Below are positions 5,434 to 13,335 of a DNA stretch of 52,634 bases, piece after piece. The translations under genes and the position numbers were made by a program. This stretch comes from Microbacteriaceae bacterium (lineage in GTDB: Bacteria; Actinomycetota; Actinomycetes; Actinomycetales; Microbacteriaceae): contig JAIXXG010000019.1 in NCBI GenBank assembly GCA_027490915.1, positions 1-52,634 on the forward strand, in the 5' to 3' direction. The number at the start of each line of letters is the position of its first letter. Position 1 is the stretch's first letter. Below the pieces are notes generated by a model. That model was given only the letters and a program-made list of their open reading frames with translations, had not been told where the DNA came from and searched no databases.

Positions 5434-6711
5434 TCAGTAGCGGGCGAGCACCTCGGCATCGCGGGCGTGCGTGAGCGCGCGGCGCACCGCGTCGAGCGCG
5501 CCGACGGGGTCGGTGTCGAGCAGGCTGCGGGATGCCCGCAACTCGTCGACCGCCTCCTCCAGCCGCGCCCGCGCGCCGGCGGAGCCGCGCTGGCCGATGG
5601 CGTCGCGCGCCGCGAGCACCTGCGCCTCGGTCTGCACCCGCGCGGCGTGGTAGGCCTCGCGGGCGTGCGCGAGCCGCTGCGCCTGCGTGCGCGAGGAGGC
5701 GAGCGCGAGCTCGACCGCATCCATCGCCTGCCGCAGCTCGTCGAGCTGCTCGAGCGGATCGGTCGGGGCGTCGCCCGCCCGACCCGCGTCGCGGCCGGCC
5801 GCCGCACCGGCCGACGCGAGCGCCGCGTCCAGCTCGGCGATCGCGGCGGTGATCGCCGCGCCGGTGTCGCCATCGGGGGCGGCGTCGACCGCGGCGAGAG
5901 CTTCGGTGCGCGCAGCGCGCGCGTCGGCCCGCAGCGCGTCGAGCGCGGCGACCGCGTCGGCCAGCCGTGCGGCCGTCGCGTCGACCTGCTCGAGCGCCTC
6001 CTCGGCCGAGAACAGCAGCCGCTCGGCTTCGGCGATGGTCGCCATCACGCTGCTCGCGGGGGCGGTGCTGCCGGGGGCGGCATCCGCTGCCTGACCCTCA
6101 GCACGGTCGAGTGCGCGGGCGGCGCGCTCGGGAGCGTCGACGGCGGGGCCGAGCGCGGTGCGGGCGTGCTGCTCGAGCAGGGCATCCCGCTGCGTCGTCG
6201 CCGTGGCGAGGCGATCGCGAGCCTCGGCGATGCGCGTGCGCAGGCGATCCAGTCGTTCGGGGGCCGTCGACTCGAGCGAGCGGCGCTGCCGGAAGGCGCC
6301 GGCCTGCTCGTCGAGCAGCCGCTCGATGCGGTCGGCGAGCATCACGATGCGGTCGGCCCGCTCGCGGTTGGCGAGACCCGCCCCGGGGTCGTCGTCGATC
6401 ATGCGGTGAAGGCGGAAGATCTCGTCGCGGTCGGTCTGCGCCCGGCGGAGGGCGGCGCGGTAGTCCTGCGCCGCACGCTCGCCGAACTGGGCGACCGCGA
6501 ACTCGACGTCGGCCTCGCCCTCGGCCAGACGGTCGTCGGCCCGCACGAGCGCCGACCCGGCGCGGCGACGGATGCCCGCCTCGACCTGCGCGGGCCGCGT
6601 TCGTCGTCGGGCGACGACCACGATGCCCCCGATCAGGACGGCCGCGGTCACGACGAGCAGGGTGCCGCCCGCGGCGATGATCGCCGAGATCGCACCGCCG
6701 ATGAGCTCCAC
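5434..6711 (-). CDS. Single-pass membrane protein with long coiled-coil (TPM C-terminal-like)
   Basis: 425 residues. A membrane segment at residues 4-34 (LIGGAISAIIAAGGTLLVVTAAVLIGGIVVVA) is followed by a basic stretch and then a long Ala/Arg/Glu/Asp-rich helical region with heptad periodicity. The block beginning GSALVRADDRLAEGEADVEF, then AVAQFGERAAQDYRAAL, EIFRLHRMIDDDP and LDEQAGAFRQ resembles the C-terminal region of actinobacterial TPM-domain proteins, but no TPM domain is present. The GTG start (6711) has TAGACT 6 nt upstream on the minus strand. It is divergent from the helicase-like gene. Function unknown; a membrane scaffold is a guess. Confidence 0.75.
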   Translation of the reverse strand: MELIGGAISAIIAAGGTLLVVTAAVLIGGIVVVARRRTRPAQVEAGIRRRAGSALVRADDRLAEGEADVEFAVAQFGERAAQDYRAALRRAQTDRDEIFRLHRMIDDDPGAGLANRERADRIVMLADRIERLLDEQAGAFRQRRSLESTAPERLDRLRTRIAEARDRLATATTQRDALLEQHARTALGPAVDAPERAARALDRAEGQAADAAPGSTAPASSVMATIAEAERLLFSAEEALEQVDATAARLADAVAALDALRADARAARTEALAAVDAAPDGDTGAAITAAIAELDAALASAGAAAGRDAGRAGDAPTDPLEQLDELRQAMDAVELALASSRTQAQRLAHAREAYHAARVQTEAQVLAARDAIGQRGSAGARARLEEAVDELRASRSLLDTDPVGALDAVRRALTHARDAEVLARY

Positions 6712-6796
6712 GCCCGAAGTCTAGATGGCGCCCCTGTTCCGGGGCAGACCGCCCGAAATCCCCGGAATGCCGCCGCTCGCGCCCTACAGTGGCGGC

Positions 6797-9700
6797 GTGT
6801 GGCGTGCCGACCGATACGACGATCATGATGACGTCGACCCTGGTGCGAGCGGGCCGAGCCCGCTCGAGCCGTCGTCGGTGCGCTTCGACGACCCGCGCGT
6901 CGCGCCCATGAACATCGCCGAGCCGGTGCGCGAGCGCTGGCGCGCCGAGCTCGCCCGGGTCGGCGGGCTCAGCACGCTGCTGCACTTCGACGACGACCCG
7001 CGCGGGCGCATCGAGCTCGGCACGAGCCACCCCGGGGGTCTGGCGCGCTTCATCGCGGGCAGCCCGACCCTGCTGAGCAACCTCGTGCGCGACGACCTCG
7101 CCCTGCGGCAGGCGCGCGTGGCGGCCGAGCGCATCGCCGACGCGGGCGTCGAGCTCGCGAGCGTGCGCGGCATCGACGCTGTGCAGCTCGGCATCGGGCT
7201 CGTGGCCTGGCGCCACGCGGGCGTCGATCACTGCGCCCCCCTGTTGCTGCGCCCGCTGCGGCTGCGCCGTCGGGGGCGGGATGTCGAGCTCACCCTCACC
7301 GGCACCGTGCGGGTGAACCCGGCGCTCGTGCGGGCGCTCGCCGAGCAGTTCCAGCTGCACCTCGACGAGACCGCCTTCGTCGCCCTCGCCCACGACGGCG
7401 AGGCCTTCAAGCCGAACCCGCCACTCGACCGCCTGCGCGGCCTCACCGCGCACGTCGACGGCTTCTCGATCACCGCGCGCCTCGTCGTCAGCTGCTTCGC
7501 CGAGGTCGGCCCGCAGCTGGTGGCCGATGCGCACGACCTCGCCCACCCCGTGCTCGACGCGCTCGCGGGCAACACGAGCGCCCGCTGGGCCGTCAGCGAG
7601 AGCGCGACGGCGGTCGCGCCGGTGCCCGCCGACCAGCGGCCGCCCGAGACCGACCTGCTGCTGCTCGACGCCGACGCCGAGCAGGAGGCCGTGATCGCGA
7701 GCATCGCGGCCGGCAACTCGCTCGTCGTCAAGACGCTGCCCGGCACGGGCGCGACGCAGACCGTCGTCAACGCGCTCGGCGCCCTCATCGCGCAGAACCG
7801 GCGCGTGCTCGTCGTGAGCCCCCGCCGGGCCACCCTGCGCACGATCGCGCGCCGCCTGGCCGACATCGGCCTCCCCGGGGCGGCGGTGTCGACCGCGACG
7901 CTGCGGCGCGACCTGATCCGCGCGATCGGTCGCAACGAGAAGGCCGAGCGCCCGCGCGTCGCCGACGTCAACGATGCGCTCGTGCGCCTGCGCACCGTGC
8001 TCATCGACTACCGGGATGCCCTCACGCGGCCCGACCCCGATCTGCAGATCAGCGTGCTCGACTGCATCGCCGAGCTGAGCCGACTGCAGCTGCTGCCGAG
8101 CCCGCCGACGACGCGCGCACGGTTGAGCCGCGCGGCCGTCGAGCTGCTGGCTGCGGACCGCCGGGCGGCGGCCGAGGCCATGGTGCAGGCGGCCGAGCTC
8201 GGCCAGTTCAGCTACGGCCCGGGCGACTCGCCCTGGTACGGTGCGCGATTCCGCACCGCGGACGAGGCCGCCGAGTCGCAGCGCATCGCGCGCCGGCTGC
8301 ACCACGAGCTCGTGCCGCGGCTCGTCGAGCGCGGCCGCGCGCTCATCGGCGCGACGCCCATGCGCCCGTTCGAGACGATCGCCGAGCTGAGCGTCGCCGT
8401 GCGCCTGCTGGCCGACCTGCGCGACACGCTCGACAAGTTCCAGCCCGCCGTGTTCGATCGGCCGCTGACCGAGCTCATCGCGGCCACCGCTCCGCGCCGC
8501 GAGGCGGGGTCGATGCCCGCCGCGACGCGGCGCCGCCTGAAGGGTCTGGCCAAGGAGTACCTGCGACCCGGGGTGAGCGTGCCCGATCTGCACGAGGCCC
8601 TGGTGCGCATCCAGCAGCAGCGGGTGCTCTGGCAGCGGTTCGCGCCCAGCGGCATCACGCCCTCGGTGCCGGTCGGCATCGCCGATGTGGCGGTGGCTCT
8701 GCAGGCGGTCGAGCACGACCTGGCCGCTCTCGACGGCCCGCTCGGCCACCACAGCCGCGAGCAGCAGCTGGCCCACCGACCCCTCGTCGAGTTGCACGCG
8801 CTGCTCGAGGGGCTCGCCGCCGAGAGCGACGTGCTCAACAACCTGCAAGAGCGCACCGCGCTCATGCAGCGCCTCGAGCAGTGGGATGTCGGCCCCCTGC
8901 TGAGCGACCTCGCCCAGCGCCACGTGCCGCACGACGAGGTCGCCGCCGAGCTCGAGCTCGCCTGGTGGCGCTCGGCGCTCGAGAGCCTGCTGCAGCAGGA
9001 TCGCGCTCTGCTCGCCGCCGCGCCCGATGTGCTCGAGCGGCTCGAGGCCGACTTCCGTCTCGTGGACGAGGCGCACGCGGCGGGCAGCGCGCAGCTGCTC
9101 GCCTGGCAGCTGGCCGAGAACTGGTCGATCGGCATCACCGACTGGCCCGACGAGGCGGCGGCGCTCAAGGCGATGCTGCGCGCCGGCGATGTCTCGAGCG
9201 AGGCCCTGCAGCGCGAGGCCCCGCACCTGAGCCGCCCGCTCGCACCGGTCTGGCTAGCGTCGCCCTACGACGTGCACCAGGTCAGCGACCGCCTCTCGTT
9301 CGACACCGTGCTGCTGCTCGACGCGGGCGCCGTCACAGTCGCCGAGGCAGCCGGGGCGATCCGTCGCGCCCGCCAGGTGGTCGCGGTCGGCGACCCCGTC
9401 ACGCAGGCGCCCGCCCCCTTCGCGATCGCGGTCGGCGAGCGCGTCGACGACGGCGACGTGGATGCCCGCCACGCGGCCAGCGCCCTCTTCCAGCTGAGCG
9501 AGCTGCTGCCGGCGATGTCGCTCACCCGCTCGTACCGCGCCGGTGGCGAAGACCTCGCCGAGCTCGTCAACCGGCGGTTCTACGCCGGGCGCATCGAGTC
9601 GCTGCCGTGGGCAGGGTCGTTCCTCGGCCACCCGTCGATCGCCGTCGACTACCTCGCCGACGGCCACGGCATGCCCGACGATGACGGCGCCATCGAGAGC

Positions 9701-10582
9701 GTCGACGCCGAGGTGCAGCGCGCGGTCGAGCTCGTCATCGAGCACGCCACCGCTCGCCCGCAGGAGTCGCTCATGGTCGTCACCGCGAGCGCGAAGCACG
9801 CCGCGCGCGTGCACACGGCCGTGCTCGAGGCGCTCGTGCACCGGCCCGACCTGCACGACGTGCTGCTCGGCGACCGCCCCGAGCCCTTCGCTGTGCTGAC
9901 GATCGAGCAGTCGGTCGCCCAGTCGCGCGACCGCGTGATCTTCTCGATCGGGTTCGGCCGCACGCCCCACGGGCGGGTGCTGAGCGAGCTCGGCTCGCTC
10001 TCGCGCGCCGGCGGCGACCGCCTGCTGGCTGTCGCCATGACGCGCGCGCGCCGCTCGCTGCGCATCGTCAGCTGCCTGCGCCCCGCCGACCTCGACGACG
10101 ACCGTCTGACGCACGGCGCGCGCGCCCTCGCCGACCTGCTTGCCGACATCGAGGCGCGGCGCACCGCCGTCGAGCTGCCCGACGACAGCGACCCGATGCT
10201 CATCGACCTCGCGCGCCGGCTCGAGGCCCGCGGCCTGCGCGTCGCGCTCGGGCACCGCGGCAAGCTGCCGCTCGTCGCCAGCCGCGGCGGGTACTGCGTC
10301 GCGGTCGAGACCGACGCCGCGCTCGGGCACCTGAGCCTGCGCGAGTCGCTGCGCCTGCGCCCCGAGCTGCTGCGTCGCCTCGGCTGGCACTACGCGCGGG
10401 TGCACGTCTTCGAGCTGTTCAGCGACCCCGAGGCCGTGGCCGACCGCATCCTGGCGCTCGTCGGGGGAGCCCCGGCCGAGCATCCCGCCGCCCCGACCGG
10501 CATGGCGCCCGCCGCGCCCCGCCCGGCCGCGCCGCGCCCGGCCGACGATCACGCGACCGACGAGCTCGCCATCACCCGCTAG
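6797..10582 (+). CDS. Giant SF1 helicase-like protein with degenerate ATPase motifs (DUF4011/AAA_11-like)
   Basis: 1261 residues. The order matches large DUF4011-type SF1 helicase proteins: an N-terminal domain, motif I near residue 315, a long helical insertion (about 380-780), motifs II-III near 838-870, motifs IV-VI (LTRSYRAGGEDLAELVNRRFYAG, later AMTRARRSLRIV) and a C-terminal nuclease-like fold (ARRLEARGLRVALGHRGKL, VAVETDAALGH, LRRLGWHYARVHVFELF). Motif I reads PGTGATQT, with Ala319 in place of the ATP-binding Lys; motif II reads LLLDAGA in place of DEA; motif III reads GDPVTQ rather than GDPKQ. ATP hydrolysis therefore looks lost although the fold is kept. The GTG at 6797 was chosen because TACAGT lies 6 nt upstream; the frame is open back to 6725. 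Confidence 0.8.
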   Translation: MWRADRYDDHDDVDPGASGPSPLEPSSVRFDDPRVAPMNIAEPVRERWRAELARVGGLSTLLHFDDDPRGRIELGTSHPGGLARFIAGSPTLLSNLVRDDLALRQARVAAERIADAGVELASVRGIDAVQLGIGLVAWRHAGVDHCAPLLLRPLRLRRRGRDVELTLTGTVRVNPALVRALAEQFQLHLDETAFVALAHDGEAFKPNPPLDRLRGLTAHVDGFSITARLVVSCFAEVGPQLVADAHDLAHPVLDALAGNTSARWAVSESATAVAPVPADQRPPETDLLLLDADAEQEAVIASIAAGNSLVVKTLPGTGATQTVVNALGALIAQNRRVLVVSPRRATLRTIARRLADIGLPGAAVSTATLRRDLIRAIGRNEKAERPRVADVNDALVRLRTVLIDYRDALTRPDPDLQISVLDCIAELSRLQLLPSPPTTRARLSRAAVELLAADRRAAAEAMVQAAELGQFSYGPGDSPWYGARFRTADEAAESQRIARRLHHELVPRLVERGRALIGATPMRPFETIAELSVAVRLLADLRDTLDKFQPAVFDRPLTELIAATAPRREAGSMPAATRRRLKGLAKEYLRPGVSVPDLHEALVRIQQQRVLWQRFAPSGITPSVPVGIADVAVALQAVEHDLAALDGPLGHHSREQQLAHRPLVELHALLEGLAAESDVLNNLQERTALMQRLEQWDVGPLLSDLAQRHVPHDEVAAELELAWWRSALESLLQQDRALLAAAPDVLERLEADFRLVDEAHAAGSAQLLAWQLAENWSIGITDWPDEAAALKAMLRAGDVSSEALQREAPHLSRPLAPVWLASPYDVHQVSDRLSFDTVLLLDAGAVTVAEAAGAIRRARQVVAVGDPVTQAPAPFAIAVGERVDDGDVDARHAASALFQLSELLPAMSLTRSYRAGGEDLAELVNRRFYAGRIESLPWAGSFLGHPSIAVDYLADGHGMPDDDGAIESVDAEVQRAVELVIEHATARPQESLMVVTASAKHAARVHTAVLEALVHRPDLHDVLLGDRPEPFAVLTIEQSVAQSRDRVIFSIGFGRTPHGRVLSELGSLSRAGGDRLLAVAMTRARRSLRIVSCLRPADLDDDRLTHGARALADLLADIEARRTAVELPDDSDPMLIDLARRLEARGLRVALGHRGKLPLVASRGGYCVAVETDAALGHLSLRESLRLRPELLRRLGWHYARVHVFELFSDPEAVADRILALVGGAPAEHPAAPTGMAPAAPRPAAPRPADDHATDELAITR

Positions 10583-11004: not shown

Positions 11005-11427
11005 CTACGACGCGGCGTCGCGTTTCGCGAGCAGGTCGCGGATCTCGCTGAGCAGCTCGAGCTCGGTCGGCGGCGCCGGCTCCGCCTCCGTCGCACCGGC
11101 CTGGCGGCGCTTCTCGGCGACCCGGCGCAGATGGTTCATCGGCGCGACGAGCGCGACGTACACCACGGCGGCCACGATGAGGAAGTTCAGCACGGCGCCG
11201 ATGACCGCCCCGAAGTACATGGTCGCCTCCCCGCCCGACAGGGTGGGGATGACGACGGGCAGCGCTTCGGCGAGGGTCTCGGCGTTGAACAGCGCCCCGA
11301 TGGCCGGGTTGATCACGCTGCCGACGAGCGCGTTGACGACGCCCGTGAAGGCGGCGCCGATGACGACGGCGACGGCGAGGTCGATGACGTTGCCGCGCAG
11401 GATGAATTCGCGAAAACCGGTGAGCAT
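11005..11427 (-). CDS. mscL: Large-conductance mechanosensitive channel MscL
   Basis: 140 residues, the normal MscL length. The N-terminus MLTGFREFILRGNVIDLAVAVVIGAAFTGVVNALV is the amphipathic S1 helix followed by pore-lining TM1, with the N-V-I-D-L-A-V signature and Gly/Ala packing positions. TM2 is FGAVIGAVLNFLIVAAVVYVALV. The cytoplasmic tail ends LLSEIRDLLAKRD, the conserved C-terminal bundle helix. MscL opens under membrane tension to release solutes during hypo-osmotic shock. The ATG has TAGCAT (11434-11439) 6 nt upstream on the minus strand. Confidence 0.97.
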   Translation of the reverse strand: MLTGFREFILRGNVIDLAVAVVIGAAFTGVVNALVGSVINPAIGALFNAETLAEALPVVIPTLSGGEATMYFGAVIGAVLNFLIVAAVVYVALVAPMNHLRRVAEKRRQAGATEAEPAPPTELELLSEIRDLLAKRDAAS

Positions 11428-11456: not shown

Positions 11457-11750
11457 TCAGCTGGCGGCGGCGGGCGCGGCGGCGGATGCGGAGCTCGTGC
11501 TGCCCGAGCCCGACGAGCCGGCCGACCCCGACCCGGACGACCCGGACCCGGACGACCCGCCGCTCGACGACCCGGCGCGGCTGTCGGTTCGGTAGAACCC
11601 CGAGCCGTTGAACGTGACGCCGACGGCCGAGAAGATCTTGCGCAGTCGGCCCTGGCACGTGGGGCACTCGGTGAGCGCGTCGTCGGTGAAGGCCTGCTGG
11701 ATGTCGAACGCCGTCGAGCATTCGGTGCAGCGGTACGAGTACGTGGGCAT
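11457..11750 (-). CDS. FmdB-family zinc-ribbon protein
   Basis: 97 residues. The N-terminus MPTYSYRCTECSTAFDIQQAF with a later CPTCQGRLRKIFSAVGV gives the two CxxC knuckles of the FmdB zinc ribbon, and GVTFNGSGFYRTDSR is the usual motif after it. The last third is a low-complexity Ser/Gly/Ala tail. FmdB proteins are putative regulatory or metal-binding proteins of unresolved role. Unlike many neighbours it has a classical leader: GGAGG is spaced about 7 nt from the ATG, with TATCCT upstream. Adjacent genes are mscL and 5-FCL, a common actinobacterial arrangement. Confidence 0.92.
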   Translation of the reverse strand: MPTYSYRCTECSTAFDIQQAFTDDALTECPTCQGRLRKIFSAVGVTFNGSGFYRTDSRAGSSSGGSSGSGSSGSGSAGSSGSGSTSSASAAAPAAAS

Positions 11751-11798
11751 CGAAGAACCTCCGCCTTCCAGGATACGGCGGCCGGAGCATCCCGTCGG

Positions 11799-12407
11799 TC
11801 AGGGGGTGAAGCGGTGGATGGCCGAGGGGGTGACGACCCCGTCGACACCCTGGTCGTGCGCCTCGCGCGGAAGCTCGTCGAGCACCTCGCTGTCGTGCAC
11901 GATCGCGAAGACGGGCGGGCGGCGATCCATCGAGCCGAGCGTCTTGTCGAAGTAGCCGCGGCCCCAACCGAGCCGCATGCCCGTGCGATCGACCGCGGCG
12001 GCCGGCACGAGGATGAGTCCGACGTCGTTGATCGCGATCGGGCCGAGCAGCTCGGTGGTGGGCACGGGCATGCCGATGACGTCGAGGCCCTCGGCGGAGT
12101 CGGAATCGGCGCCGTCGTACGGCGCCCAGTCGAGCAGGCCGTCGTCGCGCGATACGGGCAGCAGCACGCGGATTCCCTGCTCGGCCGCCCAGGAGAGGAA
12201 GGGCCGCGTCTCGGGCTCATCGCGGGTCGCGAGGTAGCAGGAGATCGCCCGCGGTCCGAGCGCCGAGGCGAGAGCGATCAGCTGGCGGGTGAGACCCTCG
12301 GTCGCGAGCTCCCGCTCGTGCTGCGGGCGGGTGCGGCGCCGCTCGCGCAGCTCGGCCCGCAGGGCGCGCTTCGCGGCGATCGGGTCGCCGTCATGCGCGG
12401 GAGGCAT
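11799..12407 (-). CDS. 5-formyltetrahydrofolate cyclo-ligase
   Basis: 202 residues. It starts with the basic substrate-binding helix AAKRALRAELRERRRTR, then GPRAISCYLATRDEPETRPFL and the signature LILVPAAAVDRTGMRLGWGRGYFDKTL, in which RLGWGRGYFD is the ATP/Mg binding motif. The enzyme converts 5-formyl-THF to 5,10-methenyl-THF with ATP, clearing an inhibitory folate. The ATG at 12407 was chosen because TAGCAT (12415-12420, minus) lies 7 nt upstream; an ATG at 12416 overlaps that hexamer. It is divergent from galU, and the two promoters occupy the same ~40 bp. Confidence 0.93.
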   Translation of the reverse strand: MPPAHDGDPIAAKRALRAELRERRRTRPQHERELATEGLTRQLIALASALGPRAISCYLATRDEPETRPFLSWAAEQGIRVLLPVSRDDGLLDWAPYDGADSDSAEGLDVIGMPVPTTELLGPIAINDVGLILVPAAAVDRTGMRLGWGRGYFDKTLGSMDRRPPVFAIVHDSEVLDELPREAHDQGVDGVVTPSAIHRFTP

Positions 12408-12444
12408 AGTGCCCATGCTAGAGGCACCCCGATACGCTGACCCC

Positions 12445-13335
12445 ATGACGCCCCGAATCACCAAGGCCGTGATCCCCGCCGCGGGGCTCGGCACCCGATT
12501 CCTCCCCGCGACGAAGGCGATGCCGAAGGAGATGCTGCCGGTGGTCGACAAACCGGCCATCCAGTACGTCGTCGAGGAGGCCGTCGGGGCGGGGCTCACC
12601 GATGTGCTCATGATCACCGGCCGCAACAAGACCGCGCTCGAGAACCACTTCGACCGGGTCGGCGAGCTGGAGGCGACGCTCGAGGCCAAGGGAGACACCG
12701 AGAAGCTCGCCAAGGTCGAGTACTCGACCGACCTCGCCGACATGCACTACGTGCGGCAGGGCGACCCGCTCGGGCTCGGCCATGCGGTGCTGCGCGCGCA
12801 CATGCACGTCGGCCGCCAGCCGTTCGCGGTGCTGCTCGGCGATGACATCATCGACCCGCGCGACCCGCTGCTGGGGCGCATGATCGCGGTGCAGGAGGCG
12901 CGGCAGACGAGCGTCATCGCCCTGCTCGAGGTCGACCCCGCGCAGGCCCACCTCTACGGTGTCGCGACGGTCGAGCCGACCGACGATGCCGACGTGGTGC
13001 GCGTCACCGGCCTGGTCGAGAAGCCGGCGCCCGGCACGGCCCCGTCGAACCTCGCCGTCATCGGCCGGTACGTGCTGCGGCCCGAGATCTTCGACATCCT
13101 CGAGCACACCCAGCCCGGCAAGGGCGGCGAGATCCAATTGACGGATGCCCTGCTCGAGCTCGCCCGCGACCCCGACCACGGCGGCGTCTACGGCGTCGTG
13201 TTCCGCGGCCGCCGCTACGACACCGGTGATCGGCTCGACTACATCAAGGCGATCGTGCAGCTCGCCGTCGAGCGCGACGACCTGGGGCCCGAGCTGCGCC
13301 CCTGGTTGCGGCAGTTCAGCGCGGGCATGGAGTAG
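12445..13335 (+). CDS. galU: UTP--glucose-1-phosphate uridylyltransferase
   Basis: 296 residues. The nucleotidyltransferase signature KAVIPAAGLGTRFLPATKAMPKEMLPVVDKPAIQYVVEEA is complete, with GRNKTALENHFD, a PFAVLLGDDIID metal-binding Asp site, VEKPAPGTAPSNLAVIGRYVL and GGEIQLTDAL. GalU makes UDP-glucose from UTP and glucose-1-P for cell-envelope glycans and the Leloir pathway, which could also serve galactose released by the GH36 enzyme in this window. The ATG at 12445 has TACGCT (12433-12438) 6 nt upstream and begins exactly at the conserved N-terminus MTPRITKAVIPAAG. Confidence 0.97.
   Translation: MTPRITKAVIPAAGLGTRFLPATKAMPKEMLPVVDKPAIQYVVEEAVGAGLTDVLMITGRNKTALENHFDRVGELEATLEAKGDTEKLAKVEYSTDLADMHYVRQGDPLGLGHAVLRAHMHVGRQPFAVLLGDDIIDPRDPLLGRMIAVQEARQTSVIALLEVDPAQAHLYGVATVEPTDDADVVRVTGLVEKPAPGTAPSNLAVIGRYVLRPEIFDILEHTQPGKGGEIQLTDALLELARDPDHGGVYGVVFRGRRYDTGDRLDYIKAIVQLAVERDDLGPELRPWLRQFSAGME

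Follow-up and report, generated by a model that had tools for sequence, protein, structure and literature searches.

What becomes of a helicase-like protein when its ATPase motifs are lost while its reading frame stays intact? The question was raised by a gene in the window analyzed here, a 52,634-nucleotide stretch of contig JAIXXG010000019.1 (assembly GCA_027490915.1) from a Microbacteriaceae bacterium. The gene encodes a 1261-residue protein made up of a DUF4011-like domain, a superfamily 1B (SF1B) helicase core of the Upf1/Dna2/Ighmbp2 type that carries a helical insert of 430 residues, and, at the C-terminus, a Vsr-like (MTES_1575) nuclease fold. An initial annotation, made from the DNA letters alone, had described it as helicase-like with altered motifs. 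The frame is open for 1261 codons, and the coordinates, the length and the three variant strings PGTGATQT (with Ala319), LDAGA and GDPVTQ were all read in the sequence as that annotation gave them. Our analysis indicates that the protein is probably a catalytically dead SF1B helicase–nuclease that is now a vertically inherited core pseudoenzyme of the order containing the Microbacteriaceae. The features of the gene are as follows, with the motif positions assigned by alignment with orthologues and intact relatives.

6797–10582, forward strand: degenerate helicase–nuclease coding sequence, 1261 residues, GTG start
6929–7651, forward strand: N-terminal DUF4011-like domain, residues 45–285 (weak Pfam DUF4011 match, clear in intact orthologues; H78-P79-x-G81, W138 and N174 conserved)
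7739–7762, forward strand: motif I (Walker A), PGTGATQT, lysine replaced by Ala319
7907–9196, forward strand: all-helical insert between motifs Ia and II, residues 371–800, conserved in dead members
9317–9331, forward strand: motif II position, LDAGA (DEAS in intact relatives)
9389–9412, forward strand: motif III position, GDPVTQAP (GDERQLPP in intact relatives)
9530–9538, forward strand: motif IV, SYR, Arg914 kept
9911–9931, forward strand: motif V position, SVAQSRD (RVQGDERD in intact relatives)
10034–10051, forward strand: motif VI, AMTRAR, Arg1083 kept
10202–10441, forward strand: MTES_1575/Vsr-like nuclease fold, residues 1136–1215, catalytic aspartate gone (P1158), D1173 invariant (Pfam match, 25.5 bits)

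The SF1B signature of a Walker A lysine, a motif II DE and a motif III glutamine is missing from the window protein, which has A319, L841/D842 and T869 at these positions. The change in motif II had been noted as LDAGA for DEA/DES; alignment to intact relatives, which read FDVVIFDEAS where the window protein reads FDTVLLLDAG, corrected the register, placing Leu841 at the metal-binding aspartate and Asp842 at the catalytic glutamate. The string GDPVTQ is present, but its Q is one residue out of register and is not the motif III glutamine. Motifs IV–VI had been called retained, which holds for Arg914 and Arg1083 but not for motif V, where the QGDE of intact relatives reads VAQS. The nuclease-like C-terminus is likewise retained as a fold, including Asp1173, but not in its catalytic residues: intact relatives have IDL...E.DG, the window protein has LPL...ETD, and the catalytic aspartate at position 1158 is a proline, so the nuclease site is degraded too. 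In the sequences assigned to family f1, the Walker A lysine was kept in 0/40 and the catalytic aspartate of the IDL motif in 0/41.

The motif changes proved to be clade-wide, so they are not a point defect. In the 114 Microbacteriaceae orthologues with the column, position 319 was G in 79, A in 25, S in 6, Q in 2, Y in 1 and L in 1, and never K. An orthologue with 92% identity likewise lacked the lysine, and both a point defect and a sequencing error were ruled out on these grounds. The nuclease aspartate position in this family is Pro, Gly or Arg. Homologues with an intact P-loop, which would have pointed to a point defect, were found in other families only, at the same locus where this was checked. 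The order genomes fetched for reading (one genome per species, as in all genome counts here) numbered 122, and 121 of them, covering 65 genera and 18 families, had the P-loop column; the lysine was absent in 114 of the 121 and present in seven. These seven, both f5 genomes and five of the seven f18 genomes, have intact motors; the motif II DE was also kept in seven genomes. Motif readings refer to the families other than f13 and f17, in which the gene was found. The long DUF4011 paralogues of related genomes, present in some genomes only, kept all motor residues in 9/9 cases, and no second homologue or compensating active copy was found in the window's own genome.

The loss took different forms in different families. 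Motif II mostly kept its Asp and lost its Glu in f3, f9, f14 and f20, whereas in f1 and f6 the Asp is gone and an Asp stands in place of the Glu; no P-loop can be recognized in f4. That several catalytic positions were lost together, and differently per family, counts in favor of a pseudoenzyme. Outside the order, the few homologues whose motifs were read have intact motors, except in families f35 and f25.

Several side observations belong here. At 13 f35 loci (L147, L149–L160) the Walker A lysine is Arg and motif II is degraded, an inactivation that was probably either independent or shared and ancient. In families f6 and f7 (L036, L038, L039, L171, L178), the ATP site is dead and the nuclease D1158 and E1171 are largely retained, so these members are possibly ATP-independent nucleases. 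Family f18, in which dead L163 and L164 stand beside intact L042, L161, L169, L184 and L215, is the best place to study the transition from intact to dead. The Curtobacterium flaccumfaciens orthologue (L138, CP121450) is split over five frames, probably by indel errors of that assembly.

Selection on the protein, asserted at the outset from the open frame, was borne out. The closest orthologue pair (dS 0.38) gave a dN/dS of about 0.12 and other pairs, at 83–87% identity, gave 0.14–0.22, compared with 0.09–0.19 for galU and 0.16–0.28 for mscL; these are Nei–Gojobori estimates from GC-rich genomes, for which only the relative values count. The RecA2 and nuclease regions had the lowest ratios in the closest pair, ≈0.05, and frames were intact across 1200 codons in nearly all genomes. 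Regional conservation differed between intact and dead forms. Identity in RecA1 and in the insert was 0.63 and 0.37, respectively, in intact orthologues, 0.54 and 0.21 in long intact paralogues, and 0.32 and 0.34 in deep dead lineages. RecA1 had thus fallen to the level of the insert, which had itself barely changed, showing that the motor lost its extra constraint and the insert did not. With a profile of the insert, L052 and L218, the members that have degenerated furthest, scored 465 and 442 bits, respectively, and the intact L040 scored 488 bits. In the deep dead lineages the nuclease fold was the best conserved region (0.45), although two catalytic positions are changed there.

Library matches of the window protein were weak but consistent. 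DUF4011 (PF13195) scored 15.7 bits, below its gathering score of 22.2 (intact orthologues, 29 and 47.5; L036, 23.4), and MTES_1575 (PF18741) fell below its gathering score of 38.2 (intact orthologues L040 and L162, 71 and 122). The best-scoring models were those of the anti-phage protein ProA (NF058533; 304.8 bits, under the equivalog cut-off of 1500) and PADLOC PDC-S37 (305.4 bits, a model for which the library gives no cut-off); the anti-phage Hhe model (NF042953) gave 128.7 bits, under its equivalog cut-off of 2000. The protein descends from the family that contains these three anti-phage proteins. A profile built from 70 orthologues matched the solved chains of Smubp-2, Upf1, Dna2 and Sen1 at E values of 1e-15 to 1e-8 (Smubp-2, 1e-15). 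AlphaFold2 modeled residues 40–1239 with a pLDDT of 92.4 and a pTM of 0.81, and Foldseek searches with this model gave E values down to 5e-13. Aligned with VIA-align, the helicase core superimposed on Ighmbp2, Dna2 and Upf1 with Z of 20–21 over 435–517 residues (rmsd 4.0–5.3 Å); the predicted structure has two RecA-like domains in the Upf1/Dna2 arrangement. The insert of about 430 residues, folded alone, had a pLDDT of 91.5.

The gene was present in 59/60 relatives. Among genomes sampled across the order, 119/119 of at least 95% completeness gave a match at E ≤ 1e-60, including one of 0.8 Mb. The class sample had full-length relatives in family f35 and a few others, and not in most families, and strong matches came from only 5/60 genomes of the phylum sample, of which three belong to the order; the two from outside it (L227, L228) have intact motors and no mscL or fmdB neighbor. 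Across the Microbacteriaceae the gene is convergent with mscL and accompanied by fmdB, a 5-formyltetrahydrofolate cyclo-ligase (FCL) gene, galU and an acetyltransferase gene. The neighbors in the window are as follows.

5434–6711, reverse strand: divergent neighbor, transmembrane (TM) plus coiled-coil protein, adjoining the gene across most of Microcella and in several further Microbacteriaceae, but not at the Curtobacterium loci
11008–11427, reverse strand: mscL, convergent syntenic neighbor (Pfam MscL)
11463–11753, reverse strand: FmdB-like zinc ribbon, syntenic neighbor (Pfam Zn_ribbon_8)
11799–12362, reverse strand: FCL, syntenic neighbor (library match)
12442–13335, forward strand: galU-like nucleotidyltransferase, syntenic neighbor (library match)

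In many other families mscL and/or fmdB flank the gene. This includes three intact members with a GKS P-loop, L040, L041 and L042, the last with fmdB only; these are the three of the seven lysine-keeping order members whose neighbors were read. Dead copies are rare on plasmids and phages. The sole near-full-length plasmid match lies on a 415 kb Actinomyces oris replicon labeled a plasmid (L229 4191-8504, NZ_CP116225.1, PGE45_RS12785), where the gene has its usual chromosomal neighborhood of mscL, SAF, FCL and glp. A gene tree computed with the motif columns excluded grouped the sequences largely by GTDB family, as expected from vertical descent, and a loss inside the f5/f18 group (L163, L164) was recovered with both FastTree and IQ-TREE, the latter tree being the smaller one.

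The gene thus encodes a universal, syntenic and selected protein that has a dead ATP site in most lineages. Because dead and intact forms share one site and the gene is present order-wide, we propose that a helicase–nuclease became a fixed core gene while still active and lost its chemistry afterwards. Synteny and the tree support an active DUF4011/SF1-helicase/Vsr-nuclease ancestor, of the kind seen in ProA and Hhe, that would have been fixed beside mscL–fmdB. The protein has since lost the Walker A lysine, the carboxylates of motif II and the glutamines of motifs III and V, and in many families the nuclease aspartate as well, with the whole fold kept under purifying selection, as the dN/dS values and the confident model show. 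With the motor residues lost in 114/121 order genomes, the protein is now probably structural, a nucleic-acid-handling housekeeping component. Deprived of ATP turnover, it may act as a clamp or scaffold. Nucleic acid would be bound by the RecA1/RecA2 cleft, whose arginines in motifs IV and VI persist in Microbacteriaceae, and by the dead nuclease fold, and partner proteins would dock on the conserved helical insert and on the N-terminal domain. The binding role is suggested by the fold and the two retained arginines, and the setting would be a housekeeping DNA or RNA process, by analogy with RecC in RecBCD or Deinococcus PriA. An ATP-independent, RecC-like nucleic-acid-binding scaffold is the function that we favor.

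Several observations weigh against this proposal. The motif IV and VI arginines are gone in f3, f4, f9, f14 and f20, which means that the families cannot all share one binding mode, and the nuclease aspartate is kept in some families, where nuclease activity may survive. The helical insert alone gave no Foldseek match at E ≤ 0.001 and a best VIA Z of 6.8, which makes its docking role a guess. No conserved upstream partner gene was found across families, the TM/coiled-coil neighbor being restricted to part of the Microbacteriaceae. How many losses were independent is uncertain, the minimum number of changes in the lysine state being four on the FastTree tree and two on the IQ-TREE tree, in which the deepest split was unresolved.

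The main competitor is a narrower form of the scaffold proposal, in which the protein serves as a non-catalytic subunit in a heteromeric enzyme and a gene elsewhere encodes the active partner, the relation of RecC to RecB/RecD. Since this is a special case of the scaffold, our confidence in the two overlaps. The RecC-like double inactivation, with dead helicase and nuclease folds and a retained helical insert (PMC1185551), speaks for it, but no partner was seen in the gene neighborhoods, nor any second homologue in the window's own genome, and we regard it as a tentative possibility. Somewhat less likely is that the protein still serves immunity, as an ATP-independent anti-phage sensor or effector within the order's core defenses. 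Its nearest named relatives are defense proteins, and a core DUF4011 gene marks the right flank of the Pseudomonas aeruginosa defense hotspot cDHS1 (PMC10250203), so that such genes can border defense hotspots; for this reason we kept defense as an alternative. Its universality, down to a reduced genome, and its housekeeping context nevertheless argue against a purely defensive role, as do the vertical tree, the fixed locus and the rarity of dead copies on plasmids and phages. None of the nine window neighbors matched a PADLOC defense model, which also ruled out a new defense island. The initial annotation had suggested a structural or defense-related sensor; the first half of that suggestion is the one we favor, and the second has been weakened.

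An unconventional NTPase, with other residues such as Lys312 before the P-loop replacing the Walker A lysine, would fit the otherwise almost invariant PGTG-x-TQT of the Microbacteriaceae and the presence of Lys312 in 99/114 of them. However, Lys312 is found in intact orthologues as well and is therefore not compensatory, motif II has lost its carboxylates and motifs III and V their glutamines, and other families lack the entire loop; moreover, a K>R change in this motif is cited in PMC4504706 as alone abolishing the ATPase of E. coli PriA. We consider such an enzyme very unlikely. Least credible is a decaying pseudogene under relaxed selection, which would account for catalytic motifs that have drifted and differ between families, but which we rejected on the retention in every near-complete order genome sampled and the low dN/dS, together with the intact frames. 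What stands of the initial annotation is its core: the protein is helicase-like and catalytically compromised, it is kept under selection, and its motif changes are clade-wide.

The start of the gene showed conservation of its own. By its named relatives, the window comes from Microcella or a lineage near it. The GTG start is likely correct because 17/17 Microcella orthologues align with it at the GTG and over the next codons; many of these frames open just three codons upstream of the aligned GTG. One further feature lies in front of it.

6785–6790, forward strand: -10-like hexamer TACAGT, placed 6 nt upstream of the GTG and possibly marking a leaderless start

A TAnnGT hexamer at exactly this spacing is present in 17/17 of the orthologues, which suggests leaderless transcription. 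In the stretch 6785–6826, the first 30 nt of the gene (GTGTGGCGTGCCGACCGATACGACGATCAT) are nearly identical at the DNA level across the Microcella orthologues; taken with the hexamer, this looks like a leaderless promoter plus a constraint on the mRNA start. The divergent gene at 5434–6711, first described as a coiled-coil membrane gene with overlapping promoters, does exist, and its protein has no Pfam family. A promoter scan found no sigma-70 match.

A protein of 1200–1600 residues thus occurs in every sampled genome of the order with no dedicated family model or described function in the libraries searched. At least one orthologue, PGE45_RS12785 of A. oris, is named DNA helicase by RefSeq, yet its P-loop is lost (PPGSDVAGT) and its DE box reads LDAS. 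Since intact and dead forms coexist within family f18, the change from an active defense-type enzyme to a core pseudoenzyme can be traced at one locus. We give about even odds to the broadest statement, that a defense-type helicase–nuclease fixed at one site, its chemistry lost in most families, has become an unrecognized, universal, RecC-like or scaffold part of a machine acting on DNA or RNA in actinobacteria, annotated wrongly as a DNA helicase. In the paper collection searched, no DUF4011 title or abstract dealt with actinobacteria.

Among known systems, ProA and PDC-S37 have the same domain order of DUF4011, SF1 helicase and MTES_1575-type nuclease, but the window protein scores far under the ProA cut-off, has lost the catalytic residues and is a core rather than a patchy gene. 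Hhe shares domain types with it; the Hhe cut-off was missed, and those long DUF4011 paralogues with higher scores for that model keep their motor residues. The Upf1-like SF1B helicases (Ighmbp2/Smubp-2, Upf1, Dna2) have the helicase core fold in common with the window protein, which differs in lacking the Walker A lysine and DE box, in its large helical insert and in a nuclease that is Vsr-like and not Dna2-type. RecC belongs to the RecB/UvrD branch rather than the Upf1-like branch, and PriA and the window protein are in different superfamilies. RecC resembles the window protein in that its helicase and nuclease domains, which have helical inserts, are inactivated and were kept for new, non-catalytic roles (PMC1185551). 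Deinococcus radiodurans PriA is a conserved helicase that has likewise lost Walker A/B throughout a clade: its ATPase is lost, yet it still binds DNA and interacts with DnaB (PMC4504706); its loss, however, is a K>R change within one phylum, and it has no nuclease domain. Together, the RecC and D. radiodurans PriA precedents make an ATP-independent binder or scaffold plausible.

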